Source: a virus
Virus record (IMG/VR): IMGVR_UViG_3300040801_001105
Span: 1-20,652 of that record
Length of the DNA: 20,652 bases
Reading direction: 5' to 3' (one strand)
A model generated the notes under the pieces. That model was not told where the DNA came from and made no database searches. It was given only the letters and a program-made list of their open reading frames with translations. This document shows, piece by piece, positions 3,207-20,652 of the stretch (within the stretch, counting starts at the first letter, position 1; every line of letters begins with the position of its first letter). The position numbers were made by a program, and so were the translations under genes.

Positions 3207-3914
3207 TTATTTATTATCGTATCTTTGAACTTTAGTAATTAGACGAACATCGAATACTGCTAATTGAGTTGGTTCATTCGAATGTATGATATGATTTCCA
3301 TCATCGTATGCTGCGTGTATACCGAGGTTTCTTAGAGTTTTATTCCAGATTGCACCGGCTTTATCATTATCATATAGAGAGAAATGTGTTTTTTCTATAT
3401 AATTTTCAATAAGGGACCAAAGATTAAATCCAGGATTTGATTTAAAGTATAGCATATATTTTTCAAAATCATCTAAGACATTAGATGAGTATCTTTTAAT
3501 TTCTTGATAGACGGTATCATCTTTCATTTTACTTGAATACATTTTTTCAATTTTTTCTAGATATTTTTTATATTCGGATGATTTAACTTTGGAAAGGTTG
3601 ATGACACCTGAGTCTGATTTTAATTCAAAGATATTAATATATTTTCTATCACCTGCATATGGAATTTCATCGGTTTTTAATACAAATTTAGAAGGATATG
3701 CATATACTCCTAATGGTCCTGTATGAGAAGCAATTGGTCGAATACCTAATTTTGGAACATCCGTGAACGAAACAAAAGAATTTTTTATTCCTAGAGAACT
3801 CATTTTATTGGCAATATGATAATGATTTTCTATAATATCTATAATGGATACTTTAGGATTTTTATCAGGATTTCTTCTTGCTTCTTTTAAGAACGTTTTA
3901 TACTGTTTTTTCAT
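3207..3914 (-). CDS. Uncharacterised phage protein with possible ADP-ribosyltransferase-like layout (235 aa)
   Basis: Function not recognised. After a basic N-terminus (MKKQYKTFLKEARRNPDK) comes SFVSFTDVPKLGIRP, then GPLGVYAYPSKFVLK, AGDRKYINIFEL, and a C-terminal block IWNKTLRNLGIHAAYDDGNH followed by IIHSNEPTQLAVFDVRLITKV. The order (an early GxYxYP strand, then a late strand ending in a VFD-type segment after a GIHAAYDD-like turn) loosely resembles phage ART-PolyVal-type domains, but I cannot place the catalytic triad. The ATG lies inside the end of the upstream gp4-like gene (17-base overlap) after a purine-rich AAGAAGAAG tract, so translation is probably coupled. It could be a virion protein delivered with the DNA or a packaging accessory. 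Confidence 0.6.
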   Translation of the reverse strand: MKKQYKTFLKEARRNPDKNPKVSIIDIIENHYHIANKMSSLGIKNSFVSFTDVPKLGIRPIASHTGPLGVYAYPSKFVLKTDEIPYAGDRKYINIFELKSDSGVINLSKVKSSEYKKYLEKIEKMYSSKMKDDTVYQEIKRYSSNVLDDFEKYMLYFKSNPGFNLWSLIENYIEKTHFSLYDNDKAGAIWNKTLRNLGIHAAYDDGNHIIHSNEPTQLAVFDVRLITKVQRYDNK

Positions 3915-4472: not shown

Positions 4473-5474
4473 ATGCCAGCTTTAAGATATCCCCTAAACG
4501 AGCTAGATACCGATGTAAAGACAACTCGTATAAAATTTACTGCTTCTGAGACAGGTAAAACGGTTAATGTCGGAAGTGTAATGCTCTATATGCCCCAAGG
4601 AGTATCCTTTGGAGATCAGGCAAATTACGGAACTTTCGAGATGGGTGCTCTTGGAGGTGCAATTCAACGAAAAATTATAGATGAAATTAAAAATGAAATA
4701 GATGCCTCTGGTGAAAGTGTTGGTGCTTGGCAATTTGGAAAAAGAATTGCATCAAAACTTGCATCTAATGCTACAGATTCTATAAAAGGACAATTTAGTT
4801 CATTGGATTCTTCTATTTCTGGAATTGCCAGCGGTTTTGGCAATTTGTCTACATATTTATCTAGACAAATTGCGCCACAAAACATTCAAGACATGATTCG
4901 GTATAATACAAAACAAGTATTAAATCCTAATACACATACATTATTTAATAATGTAGAGGTAAGAACTTTCTCGTTTTCATTTAGAATGATTGCAGAAAGT
5001 TTTGAAGAATCAAGAGCAATAATGATTATTAATAACTTTTTTAGGGAATATATGTATCCAGAAGTCACACAAAGTCCGGGATTTTTGACTAAATTTCCGG
5101 TGACATGGGACATTAAATTTTTATATGGAACAGGTTCAACTTATGAAGAAAATCATTGGATACCTAAAATTCATAAAACATTTTTAACATCGTTCAATAC
5201 AACATATAATAATGAAGCTAATTCGTTTCATAAGCAGGGTGAACCATACGATGTTTCTGTTTCGATGTCATTTATGGAAACAAAAGCATATGATAGAGCT
5301 ACTATTTTAGGTGGAGATGCAGCAGCATCCGAAGCAATGGAAAATGAAACACCAGCAGACGGAAATCCTAATACACCACCAATGGAAGTACCATCCGATG
5401 ATGATGTTACAAATATTATTATTAATGATCCTTTAAATCCTATTAGAACACCAGGAATTAATCCTCTTCCATGA
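4473..5474 (+). CDS. gp48: Baseplate tail-tube cap, gp48-like
   Basis: The 333-residue product is near T4 gp48 in length (364 aa). The N-terminal part is followed by a low-complexity Ser/Gly helix region (residues ~70-125). The C-terminal part carries tube-fold features: NVEVRTFSFSFRMIAESFEE then SRAIMIINNFFREYMYPE, FPVTWDIKFLYGTG, and a closing strand PYDVSVSMSFMETKAYDRA. gp48 and gp54 form the first rings on the hub and nucleate the tube. No separate gp54-like gene lies next to it, so this protein may do both jobs. The last ~55 residues are acidic and Pro/Asn-rich, probably disordered. It is the first gene of the rightward block, with no Shine-Dalgarno but an AATAATATG start context; its stop overlaps the gp53 start as ATGA. 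Confidence 0.8.
   Translation: MPALRYPLNELDTDVKTTRIKFTASETGKTVNVGSVMLYMPQGVSFGDQANYGTFEMGALGGAIQRKIIDEIKNEIDASGESVGAWQFGKRIASKLASNATDSIKGQFSSLDSSISGIASGFGNLSTYLSRQIAPQNIQDMIRYNTKQVLNPNTHTLFNNVEVRTFSFSFRMIAESFEESRAIMIINNFFREYMYPEVTQSPGFLTKFPVTWDIKFLYGTGSTYEENHWIPKIHKTFLTSFNTTYNNEANSFHKQGEPYDVSVSMSFMETKAYDRATILGGDAAASEAMENETPADGNPNTPPMEVPSDDDVTNIIINDPLNPIRTPGINPLP
4840..4873 (+). repeat. 12-bp perfect hairpin inside gp48, overlapping an alternative hairpin
   Basis: Arms 4840-4851 and 4862-4873 are perfect complements around a 10-base loop. A second stem, 4823-4830 with 4838-4845 (8 bp, extendable by G-U pairs), shares bases 4840-4845, so the two structures exclude each other. Confidence 0.6.
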
Positions 5475-6313
5475 GTTATTTTTCATATTTTCCGACAAGG
5501 AATAATCATCCAGTATTTTTAATCAATGACGAAAATACTAAACAAGTTCCTTTAAATATAACATTTCCTGATTTTTTTCGTCATATAGGTCTTTCGCATT
5601 TCGGTGCAAATGATGCTAATTTTTATTATGATAAAATACAAATACTGGATGGAGAAAGACCAGACCAATTATCATATCGTCTCTATGGTTCGACAATATA
5701 TTATTGGACATTTTTTCTTTTAAATGATAATCTTCGATTAGGAGAAGGATTACAATGGCCTTTGTCTCAAAAACAATTAGAAAAGAAAATAGCAATAGAC
5801 TATGAAGGACAAACCATTGTTTCATATGGTAATAAGAATATTACTCCAATAAAAAATCCAATTGTATATACAAAACGTGAATCTTTGGTTAATAAATTCC
5901 AAATCGGTGAAAGAGTACGTGGATTGCTTTCAAAAGTTGAAGGAACTATAGTAAACATTAGACCAGAAATGGGGCAGTTAATCACTAAAGATGTTTCGAC
6001 AGTTTTAGATGAACAATTCTTTAGAGTGGGTGAAACTGTTTTAGGATTAACATCCTCAGATACAATGATATGTGATTCAGCATTATTAAATTATGCAGCA
6101 GTCTATAAATATTTTGATCCAGTGACAGGGAGAGAAATTAATAATAGAAACTTTATTATCACAGATGAAACTCAACCAACCAATGGTATATCATCAATAA
6201 CTTTTGAAGAGCATCTGAAACAGATTAATGAACAATTACGAGTAATAAGAGTATTAAAAAAAGATTCTATAAGAAATTTTGTTGATACTTTCAAACAATT
6301 GATAAAAAGATAA
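5471..6313 (+). CDS. gp53: Baseplate wedge/hub linker gp53
   Basis: Residues 1-~105 carry the gp53 pattern: MSYFSYFPT start, FPDFFRHIGL, YYDKIQILDGERPDQLSYRL and YGSTIYYWTFFLLNDNLRLG, then WPLSQKQLEKKI. The segment resembles a LysM-like fold known from gp53. T4 gp53 is 196 aa; this protein is 280, with extra C-terminal sequence (IGERVRGLLSKVEGTIVNIR and a Lys/Arg-rich tail). In T4, gp53 clamps neighbouring wedges together and onto the hub to complete the baseplate. The start codon overlaps the gp48 stop (ATGA), so translation is likely coupled. The hub gene follows six bases after the stop. Confidence 0.88.
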   Translation: MSYFSYFPTRNNHPVFLINDENTKQVPLNITFPDFFRHIGLSHFGANDANFYYDKIQILDGERPDQLSYRLYGSTIYYWTFFLLNDNLRLGEGLQWPLSQKQLEKKIAIDYEGQTIVSYGNKNITPIKNPIVYTKRESLVNKFQIGERVRGLLSKVEGTIVNIRPEMGQLITKDVSTVLDEQFFRVGETVLGLTSSDTMICDSALLNYAAVYKYFDPVTGREINNRNFIITDETQPTNGISSITFEEHLKQINEQLRVIRVLKKDSIRNFVDTFKQLIKR

Positions 6314-6319
6314 AATATT

Positions 6320-9274
6320 ATGACTACAAAAGTTGGATTACCATTAATAAATGTTGAGGGAACAGAACAAGCAGATGCTATTGAATCCCATGTGAAAATT
6401 GAAAAAATATTTCTTTATTCTACAGCAGATCAATCCACTGGTATTACATATGGATCAATGAATTTAAATGATCCCAATGCATATGATGTGACACAAGTTG
6501 CTGTTGAATTAGAAATAACCGAATCAATACATTCCTTGGCAGTTGTAGGTTCATTAACAATTGTTGATAATTTTAACTTTTTTACTAATGCCAGAATACA
6601 TGGTCAAGAAAAAATATGGATTAAATTTAGAAGATTCAATCCACAGGCTCAAAATTATGATGCATCTATTGAACGCGAATTTTTAGTAACAAATATTAGG
6701 GGTATTTCAAGAGGTGAATTTAGAGGTACATTCACATTAGAATTTGCATCTCCACATGTATATTTTGATAAATTGAAAAGAATTGGTCGTTCATATGGTT
6801 TTGTTGAACTATCCGAAAAAGATTTATCAGAACCAAAAGATCAATATAAAAATGATGTTTCTGGTGGAAAAGATGCCATTAAAGGATGGAGAGAAAAATA
6901 TACAGAAGATTCTGGAAAAATAATCGAATATGCAAAAATTAGTGATGTTATTCAAGAACCTGAATCTGATTTTGGTTTTATAAATCAACGAGTAAATTCA
7001 TTTAAATATCCAGAAGAATTTATTTATGATATTCTTAGAAATGATTTAGGTCTTCCAAAAGAAAAAGTCTGGCTGTATGCAGGCAAGAGCGGTACAGGTG
7101 CTAATAGAAATTGGATTGATAGAATGAAAGTTATCATTCCTAATTGGAGACCATTACAGGCAATCAAATGGTTAATTCGAAATACCTATTATCGTAAAAA
7201 AGATAATAAAGGAGTCAAAGGTCATCCTTGGTTTTGCTATGATACATTATTAGCAGGCATTAGAATAGAACCATATGAAATGTTAATAGGATATTATAAT
7301 CCAGAAAATGATGATTCCTGGCATCTCGAAATGCAAGGTATGGGTAACGAGATTAATGACGCAGAATTAGCCTCAACTGGAAGAGTGTCTAAAGTAATGA
7401 CAGGAATATATCGTTATAATCCACAATATATTGCTGATCCTCATTCGGTAACATATTTTGCAGATGTCCATAGAAAAATACTAGAAATAGAATTTGGATT
7501 TTCTTGTGATAAATATACAAATACTTCTAATGGTGCCTATTCTACAAGAGAATGGTTTGTAGATATTGCAACAAAATATACGATGCCAAATCTTCATGTT
7601 TCTATAGATGGAACAAGAATACAATATAATGATGAAACCATTACTCAAGGAATGGATACATTATCTGTAAATCATTACTTATCATATGCAGACGATGTTG
7701 ATTCACAGGCTCCTGATTTAGATCAATCAAATTATACTTATTATGTTCCATACAATTCTGCATTACATGGAACTACCGAAGAAACATATCCATATAATAG
7801 AGCATTTGGTTTTAATTATGGTGTTCCTTCATCTGGTGGTATTGGTCCGGGTTCTATACATAAACCAAGTGATATAAATCCTGAATTATCCGAAGAAGTA
7901 ATCAATACAGGATTACCAAATGGTTCACCAATGGCGGATGGTTCATATCGATTAACAAGTAAATATGGTTATAGAACACATCCTATTGATAAAACCAGAA
8001 AAATGCATAAAGGAATTGATATGGCTGCGCCAACAGGAACACCAGTATATTCACCATATGAAGGAAAGGTTGTATTTGCAGGACAAGCAAGTGGATATGG
8101 CAATTATGTTAAAATACAACATGCGGATGGAACAGAAACAAGATATGGTCATTTAAATTCCATAGATGTTTCTGTTGGACAACCAGTTAAACCAGGACAA
8201 AAAATTGGTGGAGTAGGAAGTACCGGAAAAAGTACCGGACCACATCTTCATTATGAAATTAGAAAACACGACAATCCTGTTGATCCATTACCATATATTC
8301 AAGGGAAAAAAATGTCTACAACTACCTCAGAGGTTGGTGGTCAAGGTGGTCCTGGTGATACGTGTCCTATATCTGGATTAGTTCAATCATCTTCTAATTA
8401 TGGTCAGACACAAAATTCTGTCGGCGTTTCTCAAGCAGAATGGAATACATATCGAAAAACTATTGCTCAAATAGAAAGTTCTGGTAAAGGATATACGGCT
8501 GTTGGAGGTGCAAATAATCATTACGAAGGAGCATATCAAATGGGAAGAGCAGCAAAAACAGATGCAGCAAAAAGATTAGGGATTCCTTATCCATCGAGAT
8601 CAGAGTTTTTAGCGAATCCTGATCTACAAGAAAAAATGTTTGATTCATATACAGCACAGAACCATGCCTATTTATCTAGTAATTCTAAATATCAAGCATT
8701 GACACCACAACAGAAAATGGCTGTTCTTGGTTATGCTCATAATCAAGGTGCTGGTGCAGCATCTAAATGGCTAAATGGTGCAGCCCCAGGAACAGATGCC
8801 TTTGGAACATCCGGAACAAAATATTCTAAATGTGTTGCAAATAATTTAAATGCCGAAGACCTTCCTGTCGATGATTCTATTAATAATAATGATGATGATG
8901 GATATACAACAGGTGGAGAAGGATATAGTTCTGGAGGAAAATATATTCAAGATTATAATCCTCAAGAATTAGGAAGAATAGGAAGAATGGGTGATATGAT
9001 CAGAAAGAATATGAATTTTATGCAACACAAGATTAAGGTTCTTGGTGATTTTAAATTAAATCCAGGAATGGTAGTTCAACTTGAAATACAAAAAACTGCT
9101 CCTACTGAATTCTTGCAGAATCAAATGACAGGTTCAAGAAATGATCCAAATGTTATTGATGAATATCTTTCTGGTATTTATTTTGTTACGGAATGTACAC
9201 ATATATTTAAAGAACAAAAATTCTTTACATATGCAACAATTAATCGTGATTCTTCAACTCAAGATTTAGATTAA
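6320..9274 (+). CDS. gp27: gp27-type baseplate hub with inserted M23 peptidase and transglycosylase-like domains
   Basis: The product is 984 aa, against about 390 for T4 gp27. Residues 1-~500 form the hub body (AVELEITESIHSLAVVGSLT; EFRGTFTLEFASPHVYFDKL; later WRPLQAIKWL). Residues ~540-655 are an M23 (LytM-type) zinc endopeptidase with H563/D567 in HKGID, H611 in YGHL and H642/H644 in HLHYE, so the active site looks complete. Residues ~700-840 look like a lysozyme/lytic transglycosylase domain, with E719 in IAQIESSGK and GAYQMG further on. The hub fold resumes at ~885-984 (LNPGMVVQLEIQKTAP; LSGIYFVTECTHIFKEQKFF). The enzymes are thus inserted inside the hub, joined by Gly/Ser linkers. The likely role is to cut peptide and glycan bonds of the cell wall during injection. 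The gene ends in four in-frame TAA codons. Confidence 0.88.
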   Translation: MTTKVGLPLINVEGTEQADAIESHVKIEKIFLYSTADQSTGITYGSMNLNDPNAYDVTQVAVELEITESIHSLAVVGSLTIVDNFNFFTNARIHGQEKIWIKFRRFNPQAQNYDASIEREFLVTNIRGISRGEFRGTFTLEFASPHVYFDKLKRIGRSYGFVELSEKDLSEPKDQYKNDVSGGKDAIKGWREKYTEDSGKIIEYAKISDVIQEPESDFGFINQRVNSFKYPEEFIYDILRNDLGLPKEKVWLYAGKSGTGANRNWIDRMKVIIPNWRPLQAIKWLIRNTYYRKKDNKGVKGHPWFCYDTLLAGIRIEPYEMLIGYYNPENDDSWHLEMQGMGNEINDAELASTGRVSKVMTGIYRYNPQYIADPHSVTYFADVHRKILEIEFGFSCDKYTNTSNGAYSTREWFVDIATKYTMPNLHVSIDGTRIQYNDETITQGMDTLSVNHYLSYADDVDSQAPDLDQSNYTYYVPYNSALHGTTEETYPYNRAFGFNYGVPSSGGIGPGSIHKPSDINPELSEEVINTGLPNGSPMADGSYRLTSKYGYRTHPIDKTRKMHKGIDMAAPTGTPVYSPYEGKVVFAGQASGYGNYVKIQHADGTETRYGHLNSIDVSVGQPVKPGQKIGGVGSTGKSTGPHLHYEIRKHDNPVDPLPYIQGKKMSTTTSEVGGQGGPGDTCPISGLVQSSSNYGQTQNSVGVSQAEWNTYRKTIAQIESSGKGYTAVGGANNHYEGAYQMGRAAKTDAAKRLGIPYPSRSEFLANPDLQEKMFDSYTAQNHAYLSSNSKYQALTPQQKMAVLGYAHNQGAGAASKWLNGAAPGTDAFGTSGTKYSKCVANNLNAEDLPVDDSINNNDDDGYTTGGEGYSSGGKYIQDYNPQELGRIGRMGDMIRKNMNFMQHKIKVLGDFKLNPGMVVQLEIQKTAPTEFLQNQMTGSRNDPNVIDEYLSGIYFVTECTHIFKEQKFFTYATINRDSSTQDLD

Positions 9275-9283
9275 TAATAATAA
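9272..9283 (+). repeat. Four tandem in-frame TAA codons ending the hub gene
   Basis: The hub frame ends TAA TAA TAA TAA, and the next ATG starts at 9285. The same block ends gp25 (12575-12586) and gp6 (14459-14470). No Shine-Dalgarno is present, so the AT-rich block forms the whole leader of the next gene. Confidence 0.85.
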
Positions 9284-9284
9284 C

Positions 9285-10058
9285 ATGGATAGAGAATTTG
9301 ATTTTTTTCATCAAATAGGACAATTCCAGGTTCCTTGGACGGGTGTTGTTGAAGATCGTAATGATCCAGCCTTTATGGGACGAATTAGAGTAAGAATTTT
9401 TGGAGTACATTCTACTGATAGAACAGAAGTTCCAACAGAAACATTACCTTGGGCAACACCATTGTTTCCATCGACTTCTGCATCCTTTGGAGGTATTGGT
9501 GCTACTGCTTCAGGATTAATTGAAGGAACATGGGTGATGGGATTTTTTCGTGATGGATTTTCCTGTCAAGACCCAATTATTTTTGGTCCGATATTATCGA
9601 GTTCTTCTCCAAAATGGACGGGTACACAAAATATGTTAAAACAAAGTAACATATATAATAAAACAGCAGGAAGTATAGAAAATAATATTGTACCGTCAAC
9701 CAATGATTTGACTGACATACAAAATGAATCTTTTGGAAAGAAATTAATGGGATTTGGGACAAAAATACAAGAAAAAACATCTGAAATAACAAAAGAAATA
9801 TTAAAGAGTATTGGTATTACTAATATGGATGGTTTCAAAGATCATGCATTAGAAACCGAAGAATTTGAAGAACAAATAAATAGTGTTTCGGAAAGCATTG
9901 CAGAACAATTGATTCTAGAATTAGAACCAGAAATAAAAACACATTTTAAAATCGATGAAATTGATAGTGACACTAAAAACAATTTAAAAACAGAATTAGA
10001 AGATGACACTAAAAACAATTTAAAAGAATTAATTATCGAATATCAAAGAAATAAATGA
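9285..10058 (+). CDS. gp5: gp5-type OB-fold spike adaptor (N-terminal half of a split gp5)
   Basis: Residues 1-~112 match the gp5 N-terminal OB domain: WTGVVEDRNDPAFMGRIRVR, IFGVHSTDRTEVPTETLPWA, and then ATASGLIEGTWVMGFFRDG and QDPIIFGPI. In T4 this domain ties the spike to gp27. Classical gp5 continues into lysozyme and then a beta-helix; here the remainder (~113-257) is Lys/Glu/Asn-rich and probably helical, with no lysozyme. The acidic C-terminus contains DTKNNLK twice, encoded by a 22-bp direct repeat (9968-9989 and 10004-10025). The stop overlaps the next start (ATGA), so this half and the beta-helix half are probably made in step. The leader is the TAA block with no Shine-Dalgarno. Confidence 0.88.
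   Translation: MDREFDFFHQIGQFQVPWTGVVEDRNDPAFMGRIRVRIFGVHSTDRTEVPTETLPWATPLFPSTSASFGGIGATASGLIEGTWVMGFFRDGFSCQDPIIFGPILSSSSPKWTGTQNMLKQSNIYNKTAGSIENNIVPSTNDLTDIQNESFGKKLMGFGTKIQEKTSEITKEILKSIGITNMDGFKDHALETEEFEEQINSVSESIAEQLILELEPEIKTHFKIDEIDSDTKNNLKTELEDDTKNNLKELIIEYQRNK
9968..10025 (+). repeat. 22-bp direct repeat in the OB protein gene
   Basis: The same 22 bases occur at 9968-9989 and 10004-10025, with starts 36 bases (12 codons) apart and in frame; both encode DTKNNLK. This looks like a recent small in-frame duplication in the helical C-terminal tail. Confidence 0.85.
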
Positions 10059-12121
10059 ACAACGCTGATTACGAATTTGAAGGTTTCTTAAATACAATTA
10101 GTCGTAATGCCTTAGATAAAGGTGTTCAAAAAATTCAACAAGAAATCAATAATGAATTAAGTCCATTATATAAAACGATTACGGATGTTAATAATTTAAT
10201 TGATGAAAAAAGTGCATTGGTTGAATTTGCTACTGATAATCTAGGAAATATTATCGAAGATTCCACTGATATTATTAGTTCATTTTTATCTACTGATTTT
10301 ACTGGAATTGTTGAAGGTATTCTTTCTATAGGAAATCTCGGAGGATTTTCTAAATTTATTTTTGGTGTAATCGAAAGACCATATCTTATATTAAATGAAG
10401 TCTTTAATATATTTTGGGACCCCTTAGCATCCTTTATGACGGATTCTTTAATTGCAGATGATTTCTTTTTTAAAAGTATAGAAGAAATTATTCAAGAACC
10501 GTTAATTTCTACCTTTACTGATTTAAGAAAAGGATTATTACCAGGAACATTATATGAAAGACCATTAACAAAACATCCACTATATCCTTCAGAACCGGAT
10601 GTACACAGAGTATCAAGAAATGATAGAACTGTGTATGAACCAGGAGGAATGAAATATAATTATGATAGTGCAAGAGACCCATTATTATTAGAACCAAAAA
10701 TGTCATATAATGCGACATATCCATATAATCATTTTATGACAACAGAATCCGGACATATTTTTGAATATGATGATACACCTTCATATGAAAGAATACAAGA
10801 AAGACATTGTTCCGGAACAGGTTATCATATTAATGCAGATGGAAGTCGAAAACATTTCGTTATGGGAGACGAATTTAGTGTTATTATTCGGGATAATCGA
10901 GTACATATATTTGGAAAATTAGAATTATATGTAGATAAAGAAGCACAGATTTCTATTAATGGTGATGCAAGAATTAATATTGCCAGAAACGCCGAAATAC
11001 ATGTTCGTCGGGATGCTAATATACATACACTAAGAGATTTCAATGTTTTTGCAGGAAGAAATATTACATTAAATGCACAGGAAAACATTAAATTCAATGC
11101 AAAGAAAAATATTGAAACTTTTTCTCAAGAAGAAACTAAATTGCATTCGAAAAAATTAATGCAATTATATACAGATGAAACGTTTGAATTAAATTCTACT
11201 AAAAAAACTAAACTACAATCACTTACGCATGTAGAAATAACTGCACCATTAATTGATATAAATTATGCGTCTGGAGATTCTTTTTCTGTGAAAGGAAACA
11301 TTCCATCTCCTATTGGAAAAAAACCACATGAAATGACAATTCCATATAAAACAGAGGAATTTACAATTCGTCATGAAGGTTTTCCAGGATCGTCTGCAAC
11401 GATTTCTCAGGGTTCTATTAAAGCAGCGATGAGAAAAGGAGAATTAGGCGTAGAAGAATGGGTAAATAGACAGCCTGATATTGTATTAAAAAAACCAGAA
11501 AGTAATGAAAATTCTAGTTCTGGTGGTGGTTCCATTATTGAGGGAGTTGGTATTGATAATGAAGACGATTTAAAAGACCCTGCTAATCCGATATATGATT
11601 TTAAAATATCCAAACATTGTTATGTCAGAGATTTAACATTATCTGCATATTTTCCTCATTATTTACAAGAACAATGTGGATTATCAATCAACGAAATTGT
11701 TAAGAATCTTTCTAAATTAGCCAGATCGGCGGTTGATCCATTATATGAACATTTGGGTGGTTTTGCAGTAAATACCTATGGAAGACCAAAAGGTAAATTA
11801 CAATTAACATCCGGATTTAGAAAAGCAACAAGTTGTCGTAGTCAACATGAAAAAGGAAATGCATTTGATTTTCAAGTAATCGGTCTTGGAAAAGGATATT
11901 ATTATGATATGGCAAAATGGTGTGAAGGTGGTCTTGGCTATTCGGCAATTCTATTAGAATATAAAACAACAGGTACTAGACTTCCTTGGATTCATGTTCA
12001 AACAGCAGGTGGTGGTGGAACCTATACCTATTTAAATCATAAATTATATGAAAATCGATTCGTCAATCTATTACACAAACAAGCACTTCCACCAGATATT
12101 CATCATAAAGTAGAAGTATAA
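10055..12121 (+). CDS. Central spike protein: gp5-type beta-helix with C-terminal M15-like peptidase
   Basis: The 688-residue product starts with a helical region (1-~160) containing hydrophobic stretches (FSKFIFGVIERPYLILNEVF). Residues ~205-275 match the gp5/VgrG neck (YNHFMTTESGHIFEYDDTPS; GTGYHINADGSRKHFVMGDE). Residues ~275-405 are short alternating strand repeats (AQISINGDARINIARNAEIH; NITLNAQENIKFNAKKNIE) typical of the gp5 needle. After a Ser/Gly linker (~485-500), residues ~515-665 look like an M15 (DD-carboxypeptidase-type) zinc domain: TSGFR, SQHEKGNAFDF (H598, D605) and PWIHVQ (H647), with E635 a candidate catalytic acid. This would put a peptide-cutting enzyme at the tip end of the spike. 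The start overlaps the OB gene stop (ATGA). The frame ends at TAA within a TATAAATA box. Confidence 0.85.
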   Translation: MNNADYEFEGFLNTISRNALDKGVQKIQQEINNELSPLYKTITDVNNLIDEKSALVEFATDNLGNIIEDSTDIISSFLSTDFTGIVEGILSIGNLGGFSKFIFGVIERPYLILNEVFNIFWDPLASFMTDSLIADDFFFKSIEEIIQEPLISTFTDLRKGLLPGTLYERPLTKHPLYPSEPDVHRVSRNDRTVYEPGGMKYNYDSARDPLLLEPKMSYNATYPYNHFMTTESGHIFEYDDTPSYERIQERHCSGTGYHINADGSRKHFVMGDEFSVIIRDNRVHIFGKLELYVDKEAQISINGDARINIARNAEIHVRRDANIHTLRDFNVFAGRNITLNAQENIKFNAKKNIETFSQEETKLHSKKLMQLYTDETFELNSTKKTKLQSLTHVEITAPLIDINYASGDSFSVKGNIPSPIGKKPHEMTIPYKTEEFTIRHEGFPGSSATISQGSIKAAMRKGELGVEEWVNRQPDIVLKKPESNENSSSGGGSIIEGVGIDNEDDLKDPANPIYDFKISKHCYVRDLTLSAYFPHYLQEQCGLSINEIVKNLSKLARSAVDPLYEHLGGFAVNTYGRPKGKLQLTSGFRKATSCRSQHEKGNAFDFQVIGLGKGYYYDMAKWCEGGLGYSAILLEYKTTGTRLPWIHVQTAGGGGTYTYLNHKLYENRFVNLLHKQALPPDIHHKVEV

Positions 12122-12130: not shown

Positions 12131-12577
12131 ATGACTACAAATATAAACACATATCAAAATAGCTCGGCTATATATGAATATGAAGATATCTATACAAGAG
12201 ATAGAATATATAGTGATTTTGATTTAAGATTAATAAAACATCCTTTAAATAATAATCTAATTACATTAAAGGAAGAAATGTCTGTACAAAGAGCATTGGT
12301 TAATTTAATACTAACCGAACCAGGAGAAAAACCTTTCCATCCTAATTTTGGAACACCTTTAAATGGATTGTTGTTTGATATCGATTTGTTAAATCCATTA
12401 GATTTAGAAGATCAAATTGAAAAATCAATAAAACTATTTGAACCAAGAGTAAAAGTAAAAAAAATAAAAATCATTGATGGAAGAGATAGCAATTCTATCG
12501 GTGTTGAAATTGTTTATAGCATAATAAATCTTGAAATAAATAGAGATATAAAAGTTCACTTAAAAAGATTACGTTAA
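12131..12577 (+). CDS. gp25: Baseplate wedge protein gp25
   Basis: The 148-residue product matches the GPW/gp25 family (T4 gp25 is 132 aa). The core reads EMSVQRALVNLILTEPGEKP, then HPNFGTPLNGLLFDIDLLN, and the family EPR motif at residues 104-106 (KLFEPRVKV), followed by the closing strands. gp25 sits at the inner edge of the wedge with gp6 and gp53, contacts the first sheath ring and is thought to trigger contraction. The extra N-terminal ~25 residues are Tyr/Asn-rich. The gene is followed by four in-frame TAA codons and then gp6. No clear Shine-Dalgarno is present. Confidence 0.95.
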   Translation: MTTNINTYQNSSAIYEYEDIYTRDRIYSDFDLRLIKHPLNNNLITLKEEMSVQRALVNLILTEPGEKPFHPNFGTPLNGLLFDIDLLNPLDLEDQIEKSIKLFEPRVKVKKIKIIDGRDSNSIGVEIVYSIINLEINRDIKVHLKRLR

Positions 12578-17047: not shown

Positions 17048-20000
17048 ATGGCAACAATAACATATACTACACCACAACCACCATATCGAGATGATTTTGA
17101 TGGATCAAAAAAGTATTATAGAATTCTATATAAACCTGCATATCCTGTTCAGGCAAGAGAATTAACACAACAACAAACAACACTTCAAAACCAAATTGAA
17201 AAGTTTGGACGACATATTTTTGATGAAGGTTCATTAGTTTCTGGTGGTCAATTTGATATTGATACACAATTCCCTTATGTTATTCTTTCTAATGAAAATT
17301 CGGTCGGAAATATTGTAAACCCTACGAATTTTATTAATACAACAGTTATCGGTCAAACCTCCGGAGTAAAAGGACGGTTTATTCAGATACAACAAGTTTC
17401 ACACAATGGTACTTCATATTATGTAGGATTTGTAAGATATTTTGCCGGTTCAGAAGATATATCTTCTACAGATGTTACCTTTATCGAGGGTGAAATATTA
17501 GAAGATGTCTCCAATTCTTTGAATACTATTGCAATTGCAAATGAACAATTTGCAGATGTAGCAATACTTGGAGAAGGTTCTTTATTTTCTATCGAAGAAG
17601 GAGTAGTGTTTTCTAACGGATTGTTTCTTGACTTTGATAAACAAACCATTATTTTAGAACCATTCTCACGAACACCTAACTGTCGAGTTGGGTTCACTAT
17701 TAATATTAATATTGTAGGCTATGGTGATGATGAATCTTTATTAGATAATGCTAATGGAACACCAAACTATAATGCTCCTGGTGCAGATAGATTAAAATTA
17801 GAACCAATCCTTACTAAAATCGATCTTGATGCAACAAATTCATTGCCCGAATTTGTTGAACTGTTTAAAATAAAAAATGGTGTCATTCAAACAAAAAATG
17901 AAAGATCACAATATGCTATCATTGGAGATGAAATAGCTAAAAGAACCTATGATGAGTCTGGTGATTATTGTGTTAAAGGAATGGGCATTCGAATCCGTGA
18001 ACATCTTAATACAGGAGAAAATGAAGGTTATCTTTTAAGTGCAGATGGAGGTGATTCTACTAAATTAGATATAAATATTGAACCCGGATTAGCATATGTA
18101 AAAGGATATGAAATCAATAAATTGGTCACATCGCATATTGAAACCGATAAAAGTATTGATTATGTAAATGTTAATTCTCAGATATTATCTGTTCGTTCTT
18201 CTAATTATTTGTTGTTAGAAGAAATTGTTGGTATGCCTACCTTAGATCAAGGAACAGAAATAGATTTATATTCAGGAACATCTCCTGATATTGGTGAAAA
18301 AAGAGTAACAAATTCTTTAAAAAACACTGATACTCCTACTGGAACTAAACTAGGAACAGCAAAAGTTAAATCATTAGTATATGATTCTGGTGTATTAGGT
18401 ACACCATCTGGAAGGTTGAGATTACATTTATATGATATTCAATTATTAGAAAATGTTGGTGGTTTCCATAATGTTCGTTCGGTATATACAAATACACCAA
18501 CAGACTTTTTTGCAGATGTTGTTTTAAATACATCTACAGGTAAAGCAGAATTAAAACAAAAAAATCAATATCCTCTTCTATATCCTATTGGTACATCTTT
18601 TACAAGATCAATAAGAAGTGAAAATGAATTATCTGATACAACCTTTTCATTCCAAAGAACTAAATCCAATGTAATTATTAATACAAATGGAACATTGGAT
18701 GTTTCAATTAGTACATCCAATGAATTACTAGGATACGGAACAGGTGTATTATCTTCTACAGAAAAACAAACAGTATTTCTAACAGTAGAAGAGGATGTTG
18801 CAATTTCATTGCCCGGAACTGTTTCGGGTTCTTCTGGAACTACTTCAATAACAGGTTCAGGAACCGCGTTTACTCGATTAAATATCGGAGACAAGATTGA
18901 AATTGCTGGATTGACTGATACCTATATTGTTACTTCTATTACTAATGATACCTCATTGACAGTTGACAGAAATTTGACTGGAACCGCAAGTGGAGCCACC
19001 TATGAAAAAGTATATTATGCTGGAGATTATATTAATCTTCATGGAAAAGGAAGTGATGCGGGAACATTAAGAACTGTTTCTTGTAATTCTACAAGAACTG
19101 GAATGTCTTTTAATTTACAAGAAACATATTCTAGTACAGTCAATGCTACAGTATCTTTTTCGGTAACAAGATCATCTGCGTATGAAGTAAAAAAACAATT
19201 AAAGAACAATCGATTTGTTAAAATTGATTGTTCGTCATACGAGTGGGATTCTCCCGAAGATTTCACAAAGAAAATCTTTCTTGGATTTTCTGATATTTTT
19301 AAAATCCATCAAATTAGAAAACATACTTCTACATTTTCATCAGATTCAGATGGAACCGATGTAACAGACCAATTTACTTTTAATACAGGTCAAACGGATG
19401 ATTTTTATGATCATGGATATATTCAATTAAAAGATGGTTATTCTCTTTCTTCATCGGATTATCTATTAATAGAATTAGATTATTTCCTTCCTGATTTTTC
19501 GTTGGGTGTAGGTTATTTTTCTGTGGATTCATATCCTATAGATGATACTCAAGCCTCTTCTACTACAATATATACACATGAAATTCCAGTATATACATCT
19601 CCGGAAACTGGACAATTATATGATCTACGAGATTATTTAGATTTTCGTTCAGTAAAAGCAAATACTGCAACGGATGCAACTGCGGTTGGAAGTGCATCAA
19701 CAAATCCATCAACAACTAATTCATTTACATTTGCAGCGAATGGATTAAGATTACCAAAACCTTCTACTCAAATAATAGTAGATTATTCATATTATTTGGC
19801 AAGACGTGATCTTGTCACTCTAAATATTAATGGAGATTTTGGTATACGAAAAGGTATTTCTGATGAATCTCCGGTAACGCCAGCGGTTCCAGAAAATGAA
19901 ATGGGTATCGCTAAAATTTTCATTCCTCCATATCCATCATTATCAACAACATATGCAAGAATACTTAATAGAGAGGATATTGCATGTAAATTTAATCGCA

Positions 20001-20652
20001 TTACGTTTGAAAGACATACAATGAGAGATATTGGTGTCCTAAAAGAACGTATTAAATCTTTGGAGTATTATACAAGTCTCAATGCACTCGAAAAAAATGC
20101 TTCTGATCAATCAATCCTTGATGAAAATGGATTAGAAAGATTTAAAAATGGTATTTTTGTAGACCCATTTGTAGACCATTCATTGGGTGATTCTACCAAT
20201 GATGATTATAAAATAGCAGTTGATCCTAACGAACAATGTATTAGACCAAGATTTAGAATGGATTCTTCTTTATATAGGTTTCTTAATAATCAATCTTCTA
20301 ATGTTCAAATTGGTAAGTCCATTGTTACATTACCATATACAGAAACATCGTTCATAGAACAATTAAAAGCAACATCCTATAGAAATATTGAACAAAGTGT
20401 TTATCGTTTTATTGGTACTATAGAAATGGAACCCGACACAGACGTATGGGTTGATACAGATACTATCGATAAAACATATAATATTGATCTTTCTCCTTCT
20501 TTTAATGAATCTATTTTGACCGTCGAATGGGATTCCTGGGAAAAATATGCTACCGGATATAGTGGTTATGATAGAGATTTTAATGATAGATCAGACAATT
20601 TAAATGAGAATTATTATACAGGAACATATTCAACATATGCAGAAGCATTAAA
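17048..20652 (+). CDS. Large DUF4815-type virion structural protein, C-terminus beyond window
   Basis: Open from ATG 17048 through the right edge: 1201 complete codons plus two bases, with no stop in the stretches of the frame I checked along its length. The N-terminus YRILYKPAYPVQARELTQQQ then TLQNQIEKFGRHIFDEGSLV is what I recognise as DUF4815, found in large structural proteins of T4-like cyanophages and relatives. A segment at ~residue 597-640 (SGTAFTRLNIGDKIEIAGL, then TSITNDTSLTV) is a small beta module common in phage fibre and baseplate proteins. Later come ERIKSLEYYTSLNALEKNA, CIRPRFRM and WDSWEKYATGY. Its place after gp8 suggests a peripheral baseplate or fibre-attachment part, analogous in position to T4 gp9/gp10, though not clearly homologous. 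The leader is A-rich (AAAGAAAAAAA) with no Shine-Dalgarno. Hairpins at 17832-17858 and 19204-19233 lie inside it. Confidence 0.8.
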   Translation, partial: MATITYTTPQPPYRDDFDGSKKYYRILYKPAYPVQARELTQQQTTLQNQIEKFGRHIFDEGSLVSGGQFDIDTQFPYVILSNENSVGNIVNPTNFINTTVIGQTSGVKGRFIQIQQVSHNGTSYYVGFVRYFAGSEDISSTDVTFIEGEILEDVSNSLNTIAIANEQFADVAILGEGSLFSIEEGVVFSNGLFLDFDKQTIILEPFSRTPNCRVGFTININIVGYGDDESLLDNANGTPNYNAPGADRLKLEPILTKIDLDATNSLPEFVELFKIKNGVIQTKNERSQYAIIGDEIAKRTYDESGDYCVKGMGIRIREHLNTGENEGYLLSADGGDSTKLDINIEPGLAYVKGYEINKLVTSHIETDKSIDYVNVNSQILSVRSSNYLLLEEIVGMPTLDQGTEIDLYSGTSPDIGEKRVTNSLKNTDTPTGTKLGTAKVKSLVYDSGVLGTPSGRLRLHLYDIQLLENVGGFHNVRSVYTNTPTDFFADVVLNTSTGKAELKQKNQYPLLYPIGTSFTRSIRSENELSDTTFSFQRTKSNVIINTNGTLDVSISTSNELLGYGTGVLSSTEKQTVFLTVEEDVAISLPGTVSGSSGTTSITGSGTAFTRLNIGDKIEIAGLTDTYIVTSITNDTSLTVDRNLTGTASGATYEKVYYAGDYINLHGKGSDAGTLRTVSCNSTRTGMSFNLQETYSSTVNATVSFSVTRSSAYEVKKQLKNNRFVKIDCSSYEWDSPEDFTKKIFLGFSDIFKIHQIRKHTSTFSSDSDGTDVTDQFTFNTGQTDDFYDHGYIQLKDGYSLSSSDYLLIELDYFLPDFSLGVGYFSVDSYPIDDTQASSTTIYTHEIPVYTSPETGQLYDLRDYLDFRSVKANTATDATAVGSASTNPSTTNSFTFAANGLRLPKPSTQIIVDYSYYLARRDLVTLNINGDFGIRKGISDESPVTPAVPENEMGIAKIFIPPYPSLSTTYARILNREDIACKFNRITFERHTMRDIGVLKERIKSLEYYTSLNALEKNASDQSILDENGLERFKNGIFVDPFVDHSLGDSTNDDYKIAVDPNEQCIRPRFRMDSSLYRFLNNQSSNVQIGKSIVTLPYTETSFIEQLKATSYRNIEQSVYRFIGTIEMEPDTDVWVDTDTIDKTYNIDLSPSFNESILTVEWDSWEKYATGYSGYDRDFNDRSDNLNENYYTGTYSTYAEAL
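17832..17858 (+). repeat. 10-bp perfect hairpin in the DUF4815-type gene
   Basis: CAACAAATTC (17832-17841) pairs perfectly with 17849-17858 around the 7-base loop ATTGCCC. By itself it is only a little beyond what AT-rich DNA gives by chance. Confidence 0.5.
19179..19241 (+). repeat. Nested hairpin in the DUF4815-type gene (13 bp inner, 7 bp outer)
   Basis: Inner arms 19204-19216 and 19221-19233 pair over 13 positions with one G-U pair and a GTTA loop. Outer arms 19179-19185 and 19235-19241 (CGTATGA / TCATACG) are perfect and enclose it. The G-U pair works only in the plus-strand RNA, that is, in the message of this gene. Confidence 0.65.

Follow-up and report, generated by a model that had tools for sequence, protein, structure and literature searches.

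Predicted peptidoglycan hydrolases of three types on the hub and spike of a T4-like baseplate

Which wall-cutting enzymes does a T4-like phage carry on its puncturing device, and in which of the device's proteins do they sit? In phage T4, a torch-shaped trimeric assembly of gp27 and gp5 carries three lysozyme domains, which act in the periplasm once the beta-helix has dissociated (PMC3004832). The question is raised by IMGVR_UViG_3300040801_001105, a virus record of 20,652 bases (analysed over its whole length and called the window below), in which Pfam and PHROG matches identify a T4-like baseplate cluster. Its + strand encodes, in this order, a tail-tube cap, gp53, the hub, an OB protein, the spike, gp25, gp6 and more wedge genes, while the - strand carries genes for head closure, the DNA end protector, the tail tube and a gp26-like hub protein, plus the beginning of a tape measure. 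The features considered here are:

4473..5474, + strand: baseplate tail-tube cap homologue (phrog_230, E 3.9e-35)
5471..6313, + strand: baseplate wedge gp53 homologue (Pfam, E 3.8e-8)
6320..9274, + strand: 984-aa hub protein, a gp27 homologue interrupted by an enzyme insert (phrog_350 matches at the two ends, M23 and endolysin matches between them)
6320..7819, + strand: N-terminal part of the gp27 core, aa 1-500 of the hub
7940..8302, + strand: predicted M23 metallopeptidase domain, aa 541-661 of the hub
8390..8869, + strand: lytic-transglycosylase-like domain, aa 691-850 of the hub
8957..9271, + strand: C-terminal part of the gp27 core, aa 880-984 of the hub
9285..10058, + strand: separate gp5 OB-domain protein, 257 aa (Pfam Gp5_OB, E 4.1e-14)
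10055..12121, + strand: spike protein, corresponding to the C-terminal part of gp5, 688 aa
10055..10639, + strand: N-terminal region of the spike, aa 1-195, lineage-specific
10640..11314, + strand: gp5-type beta-helix region, aa 196-420 of the spike (end approximate)
11600..12070, + strand: M15 metallopeptidase-like domain, aa 516-672 of the spike
12131..12577, + strand: baseplate wedge gp25 homologue (Pfam, E 4.2e-13)

An assembly artefact or a frameshift as the source of this arrangement was rejected, since an independent contig (L001) has the same gene order and domains at 59% identity; a further one (L002) shows the architecture in part. The lineage is rare, its contigs being found only in the record series 3300040792-3300040801. 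Elsewhere in the window, an ORF of 235 aa (3207-3914, - strand) lies between the head-closure and DNA-end-protector genes and has no match in Pfam or PHROG, and an open-ended ORF of 1201 aa (17048-20650, + strand) closes the baseplate cluster and matches phrog_358 (E 3.5e-241), a family without an assigned function. Matches to sigma-70-like promoters were fewer in the window than in shuffled sequences.

The hub protein and its enzyme insert

The gp27 family (phrog_350) matches the hub at aa 47-160 (E 1e-22) and a second time at its very end (model positions 338-430 of 436, E 1.1e-11). The hhalign comparison with 14 gp27 proteins of other phages, from which the lineage of the window was excluded, reported gp27 homology over both halves (N-terminal half: E 1.3e-17; C-terminal half: E 2.1e-9), while a search of the PDB with the gp27 profile detected no sequence similarity to T4 gp27. 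Between the two halves (aa 1-500 and 880-984) lies an insert of about 380 aa that comprises the M23 and the lytic-transglycosylase-like domains. The AlphaFold prediction covers aa 530-860 of the hub, i.e. the insert region alone, and it is from the sequence that we regard the protein as an otherwise normal gp27 divided by the enzyme insert.

Between the hubs of the window and L001, the identity is 62% in the M23 domain, 69% in the glycosidase domain and 64-65% in gp27, compared with 35-42% in the linkers. The enzyme domains are thus conserved to the same degree as the gp27 core, and the linkers are poorly conserved; judged by their composition, the linkers around the insert are flexible. These linkers would suit a hub that is processed, with the M23-glycosidase insert cut out or freed during assembly or entry and gp27 acting as a mere delivery vehicle, and maturation cleavage has a precedent in T4 gp5 (PMC3004832). 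We nonetheless consider such processing improbable, as neither a protease nor a conserved cleavage site was seen and the insert sits between two halves of gp27 that are both needed in the fold.

The Pfam model of M23 peptidases (PF01551) is covered over its full length by hub residues 561-656 (E 2.9e-38), and the HxxxD and HxH motifs of the M23B/LytM type are present as H563-x3-D567, H611 and H642-x-H644, with all five residues retained in both hubs (window and L001). The best PDB match is NMB0315 (E 4.7e-32), and the AlphaFold model reaches Z values of about 19-20 against StM23, ShyA and lysostaphin (9gy1: 19.8; ShyA: 18.9), as expected of a LytM fold. The nearest NCBIfam models are those of ShyA and MepM, with scores far below their whole-protein cut-offs, so that the subfamily is only indicated. 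The closest proteins overall are Gram-negative DD-endopeptidases such as NMB0315, ShyA and MepM, a type of enzyme that cuts the common D-Ala-mDAP bond (PMC9662197). From sequence and model together, the hub M23 domain is predicted to be of the DD-endopeptidase type, with an intact active site. The model of the M23-glycosidase tandem is also matched by the pre-ejectosome protein of cyanophage A4 (PDB 9k2v; Z 13.7, though at an rmsd of 16), which suggests a similar pair of domains in the ejection protein of a podovirus.

The second domain of the insert found no match in a Pfam search, and in PHROG it matches phrog_5867, annotated as "endolysin" (E 4e-34). Among 43 relatives, the family Transglycosylas (PF06737) was hit weakly in seven (best E 0.019). 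The predicted structure (core pLDDT 94-98) matches MltE with Z 14.1 (147 residues, rmsd 2.7 Å) and MltC with Z 13.3, which points to the lysozyme-like helical fold of lytic transglycosylases in aa 691-850. A profile search of the PDB with an alignment of four sequences returned nothing useful; the profile of the 43 relatives reached gp144 of phage phiKZ, weakly (E 0.34) yet in register, placing E719 on Glu115, the catalytic residue of this transglycosylase (PMC5406664). E719 belongs to the first ES motif, lies outside the patterns used in the searches and is invariant in 66 of 66 relatives; the motifs YQMG and AHNQG (806-810) are further hallmarks of the domain. The predicted glycosidase assignment rests on fold, motifs and context, the sequence link to gp144 being weak.

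The closest relatives of this domain (43-46% identity) are encoded by the Synechococcus phages S-WAM1, RN05-S, S-H68 and S-B05, more distant ones (about 30%) are gp5 proteins of Sinorhizobium phage phiM9 and Agrobacterium phage Atu_ph04, and others reside in tape measures of Acetobacteraceae prophages. Every relative read in its context is a virion tail protein, i.e. a tape-measure-like protein upstream of gp27, a gp5 or a prophage tape measure. The motifs IES, YxGxYQMG, GYAHNQG and DGFGTxGT recur throughout the family (L013-L092 and L174-L180), in many marine T4-like phages and in the prophage tape measures. This transglycosylase-like family appears to be undescribed, lacks a Pfam model and is found widely among the tail proteins that marine T4-like phages encode. 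In S-WAM1, RN05-S and S-H68 the domain is part of a large separate tape-measure-like protein encoded immediately upstream of the gene for a plain gp27 (438-462 aa), and RN05-S and S-H68 also share the M23 domain. Among the fetched loci, glycosidase and gp27 occur in one ORF only in the window, in L001 (which was fetched under the handles L013 and L095 as well) and in L002, while in 50 cases the glycosidase is encoded by a separate ORF with gp27 elsewhere on the locus and 33 loci are fragments without gp27. The tape-measure-like type of the Synechococcus relatives bears M23, amidase and transglycosylase-like domains, so the virion encoded by the window could hold more hydrolases than described here; the start of its own tape-measure-like protein (1-966, - strand; phrog_1272, E 3.6e-6) runs off the window edge.

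The divided gp5 and the M15-like domain of the spike

The OB protein consists of an OB domain (aa ~16-130) followed by a charged and probably helical tail, with no lysozyme; the profile of the tail matches the lineage of the window only. The OB domain and the beta-helix of gp5 are encoded by two genes, as in L001 and L002. T4-type gp5 unites OB domain, lysozyme and beta-helix in a single polypeptide; here the lysozyme slot separating the other two is empty. The spike matches T4-type gp5 at aa 210-291 (E 1.3e-16) and phrog_430 (E 8e-36), and its first 195 or so residues (aa 1-195) have no significant match outside the window, L001, L002 and L003.

The C-terminal domain of the spike, common to the spikes of phages pf16, Cr30 and Melnitz, taken alone scores below the Pfam cut-off (E 0.03), and Peptidase_M15_3 matches 41 of 45 related domains (best E 2.4e-9). 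The best structural match of its model is the zinc DD-peptidase 1LBU (Z 10.6, 124 residues, 3.1 Å), followed by matches at Z 6.1; hedgehog proteins are also among them. A PDB profile search with an alignment of six sequences gave nothing useful, and a larger alignment reached hedgehog, with a weak sequence link (sonic hedgehog, E 0.16) in which S-H598, G, A, D605 and E635 align with the hedgehog signature. The zinc-ligand pattern of M15 peptidases, SxHxxGxAxD ... H, is present as H598, D605 and H647, invariant in 60 relatives, and E635, a possible catalytic acid located 12 residues before H647 and aligned with the Glu of the hedgehog YYESK motif, is likewise invariant. Because some of these residues lay in the search patterns, their conservation was recounted on sequences obtained with the other pattern (H598 and D605: 47/47; E635: 5/5; H647: 60/60). 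Between the window and L002, the domain has the lowest dN within the spike (0.05, vs a dS of 0.76). On the strength of model and sequence we predict that the spike ends in a zinc peptidase domain of the M15 type with an intact active site.

The hedgehog proteins are an example of how an M15-type fold can lose enzyme activity. At least one of the three domains might accordingly be a binding or scaffold module without catalysis, like the LytM domains of EnvC and NlpD or like hedgehog: degenerate members are known from both folds (EnvC is among the M23 matches and hedgehog among the M15 matches), and the searches made found no characterised member of the transglycosylase-like family. Retention of all M23 residues in both hubs and the invariance of E719, H598, D605, E635 and H647 argue against this possibility, which we consider unlikely.

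A preliminary description of the locus had proposed, from its sequence, that three different peptidoglycan-degrading domains reside on one needle, and the searches bear this out more strongly than it was put: the segments match enzyme families or folds (M23 of Pfam, MltE and 1LBU, respectively), and hub and needle together are predicted to carry an M23 endopeptidase, a lytic-transglycosylase-like glycosidase and an M15 peptidase, all with predicted active sites intact. The "complete-looking" M23 domain with H563, D567, H611, H642 and H644 and the transglycosylase-like domain with E719 were placed correctly, and so was the spike, two genes after the hub, because gp5 is split and the OB domain has a gene of its own in between (9285-10058). 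The M15 end of the spike had been recognised, with H598, D605 and H647 in their right positions, and its predicted fold matches 1LBU; the fourth conserved residue E635, the split of gp5 and the empty lysozyme slot had been overlooked.

Related spikes show what else the slot can hold. Splits of OB protein and spike also occur in Melnitz, L137, L166 and L167; gp5 is a single protein in pf16, Cr30 and many others. The gp5 slot or the OB protein carries a GH19-type domain in L104, L119, L131 and L146, Phage_lysozyme2 in Cr30 and L167, and a VanY/M15-type domain in Melnitz, L166 and L137; in L140 the slot holds a diverged version of the glycosidase described here, and in pf16 it is empty. Judged from these sequences, the M15 tip would be the constant part and the slot enzyme the variable one, in loci that were fetched by their M15 domain, whose presence there is by construction. 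The gp5 of L140 (3718-6381, 888 aa) contains OB domain, divergent transglycosylase-like domain, beta-helix and M15 domain, i.e. both enzymes in one gp5 of T4 order. In Melnitz (L010), the OB protein (4895-5935) has a VanY-type domain and the spike (5935-7938) an M15-like domain, at odds with the published account, in which no lysin-like genes besides gp67 are reported (PMC9004378).

Proposed working of the device

Like the T4 gp27-gp5 complex, the device has a gp27-type hub, a gp5 OB domain, a beta-helix spike and virion-borne peptidoglycan hydrolase. T4 has its only lysozyme in gp5, flanked by OB domain and beta-helix; here this slot is empty, gp5 is encoded by two genes, and the enzymes are inserted in gp27 and, in the case of M15, placed after the beta-helix. 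The spikes of Melnitz (Methylophilales), Cr30 (Caulobacter) and pf16 (Pseudomonas) have the same M15-like domain in that position, and Melnitz shares the division of gp5 into OB protein and spike. A second hydrolase sits in the gp5 slot or the OB protein of Melnitz (VanY type) and Cr30 (Phage_lysozyme2), and pf16 showed none; Cr30 and pf16 have a plain gp27, unlike the window.

More distant parallels exist in phages of Gram-positive hosts. The two domains of phi29 gp13 are a glycosidase and an M23 endopeptidase. Tal of Tuc2009 belongs to the gp27-like class, with its M23 domain as a C-terminal extension. Both gp13, from the tail knob of a Bacillus phage, and Tal, a lactococcal tail-associated lysin, resemble the present hub in bearing M23 peptidase on a tail-tip protein (PMC9662197, for gp13 its M23 part). 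They differ from it in that phi29 is short-tailed and its gp13 a separate tip protein, rather than part of a gp27 hub, that lacks an M15 domain, while the tail of Tuc2009 is long and non-contractile. Each enzyme type has precedents in virions, and needles with two enzymes are frequent among relatives; within the data searched, the novelty lies in three features occurring together, namely a third enzyme, an insert within gp27 and a gp5 slot left empty.

Very probably, the locus encodes the puncturing device of a T4-like myovirus, with an M23 and lytic-transglycosylase-like insert in gp27, a split gp5 and an M15 tip, which opens the wall for the tube. By analogy with T4, three copies of each chain would form hub and needle, and with this trimeric stoichiometry nine tethered catalytic domains would arrive together. 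Contraction of the sheath would drive the needle through the outer membrane, with the M15 domains near the tip of the spike and the M23 and glycosidase domains fixed to the ring that extends the tail tube, if positions are as in T4. Together, the three enzymes would cut stem peptides or cross-links as well as glycan strands and thereby open the wall locally to let the tube pass, the glycosidase on gp27 replacing the gp5 lysozyme of T4. In T4, gp5 is cut at the Ser351-Ala352 bond (PMC3004832), and the gene split may be a permanent version of this cleavage after Ser351, such that the spike detaches and the hub keeps its enzymes. Order of action, stoichiometry and the gene split standing in for the T4 cleavage are what we infer from T4. 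One may further speculate, tentatively, that the wall is opened in two stages, the M15-tipped spike, freed by the division of gp5, being shed after a first gap and the gp27 ring with its endopeptidase and transglycosylase remaining at the tail-tube mouth and widening the hole while the tube moves forward; such a staged process is not described for T4-like phages.

The preliminary description had also read the enzyme set as a sign of an unusual or thick, highly cross-linked host wall, which three activities could in principle open, but this is unsupported and we doubt it, as two-hydrolase needles are common in relatives that infect ordinary Gram-negative bacteria (Cr30 with Phage_lysozyme2 and M15, Melnitz with VanY type and M15), the hub M23 domain is closest to Gram-negative DD-endopeptidases, and movement of modules between tail proteins accounts for the set without special host-wall chemistry.

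Taken as such a device, the locus implies that T4-like phages need not have their tail lysozyme as a fixed part of gp5, and that wall-cutting modules shift among the tape measure, the slot in gp5, the OB protein and the hub. It would provide a natural three-enzyme set for studying how virions breach peptidoglycan, and its domains are candidate enzymes against Gram-negative walls.
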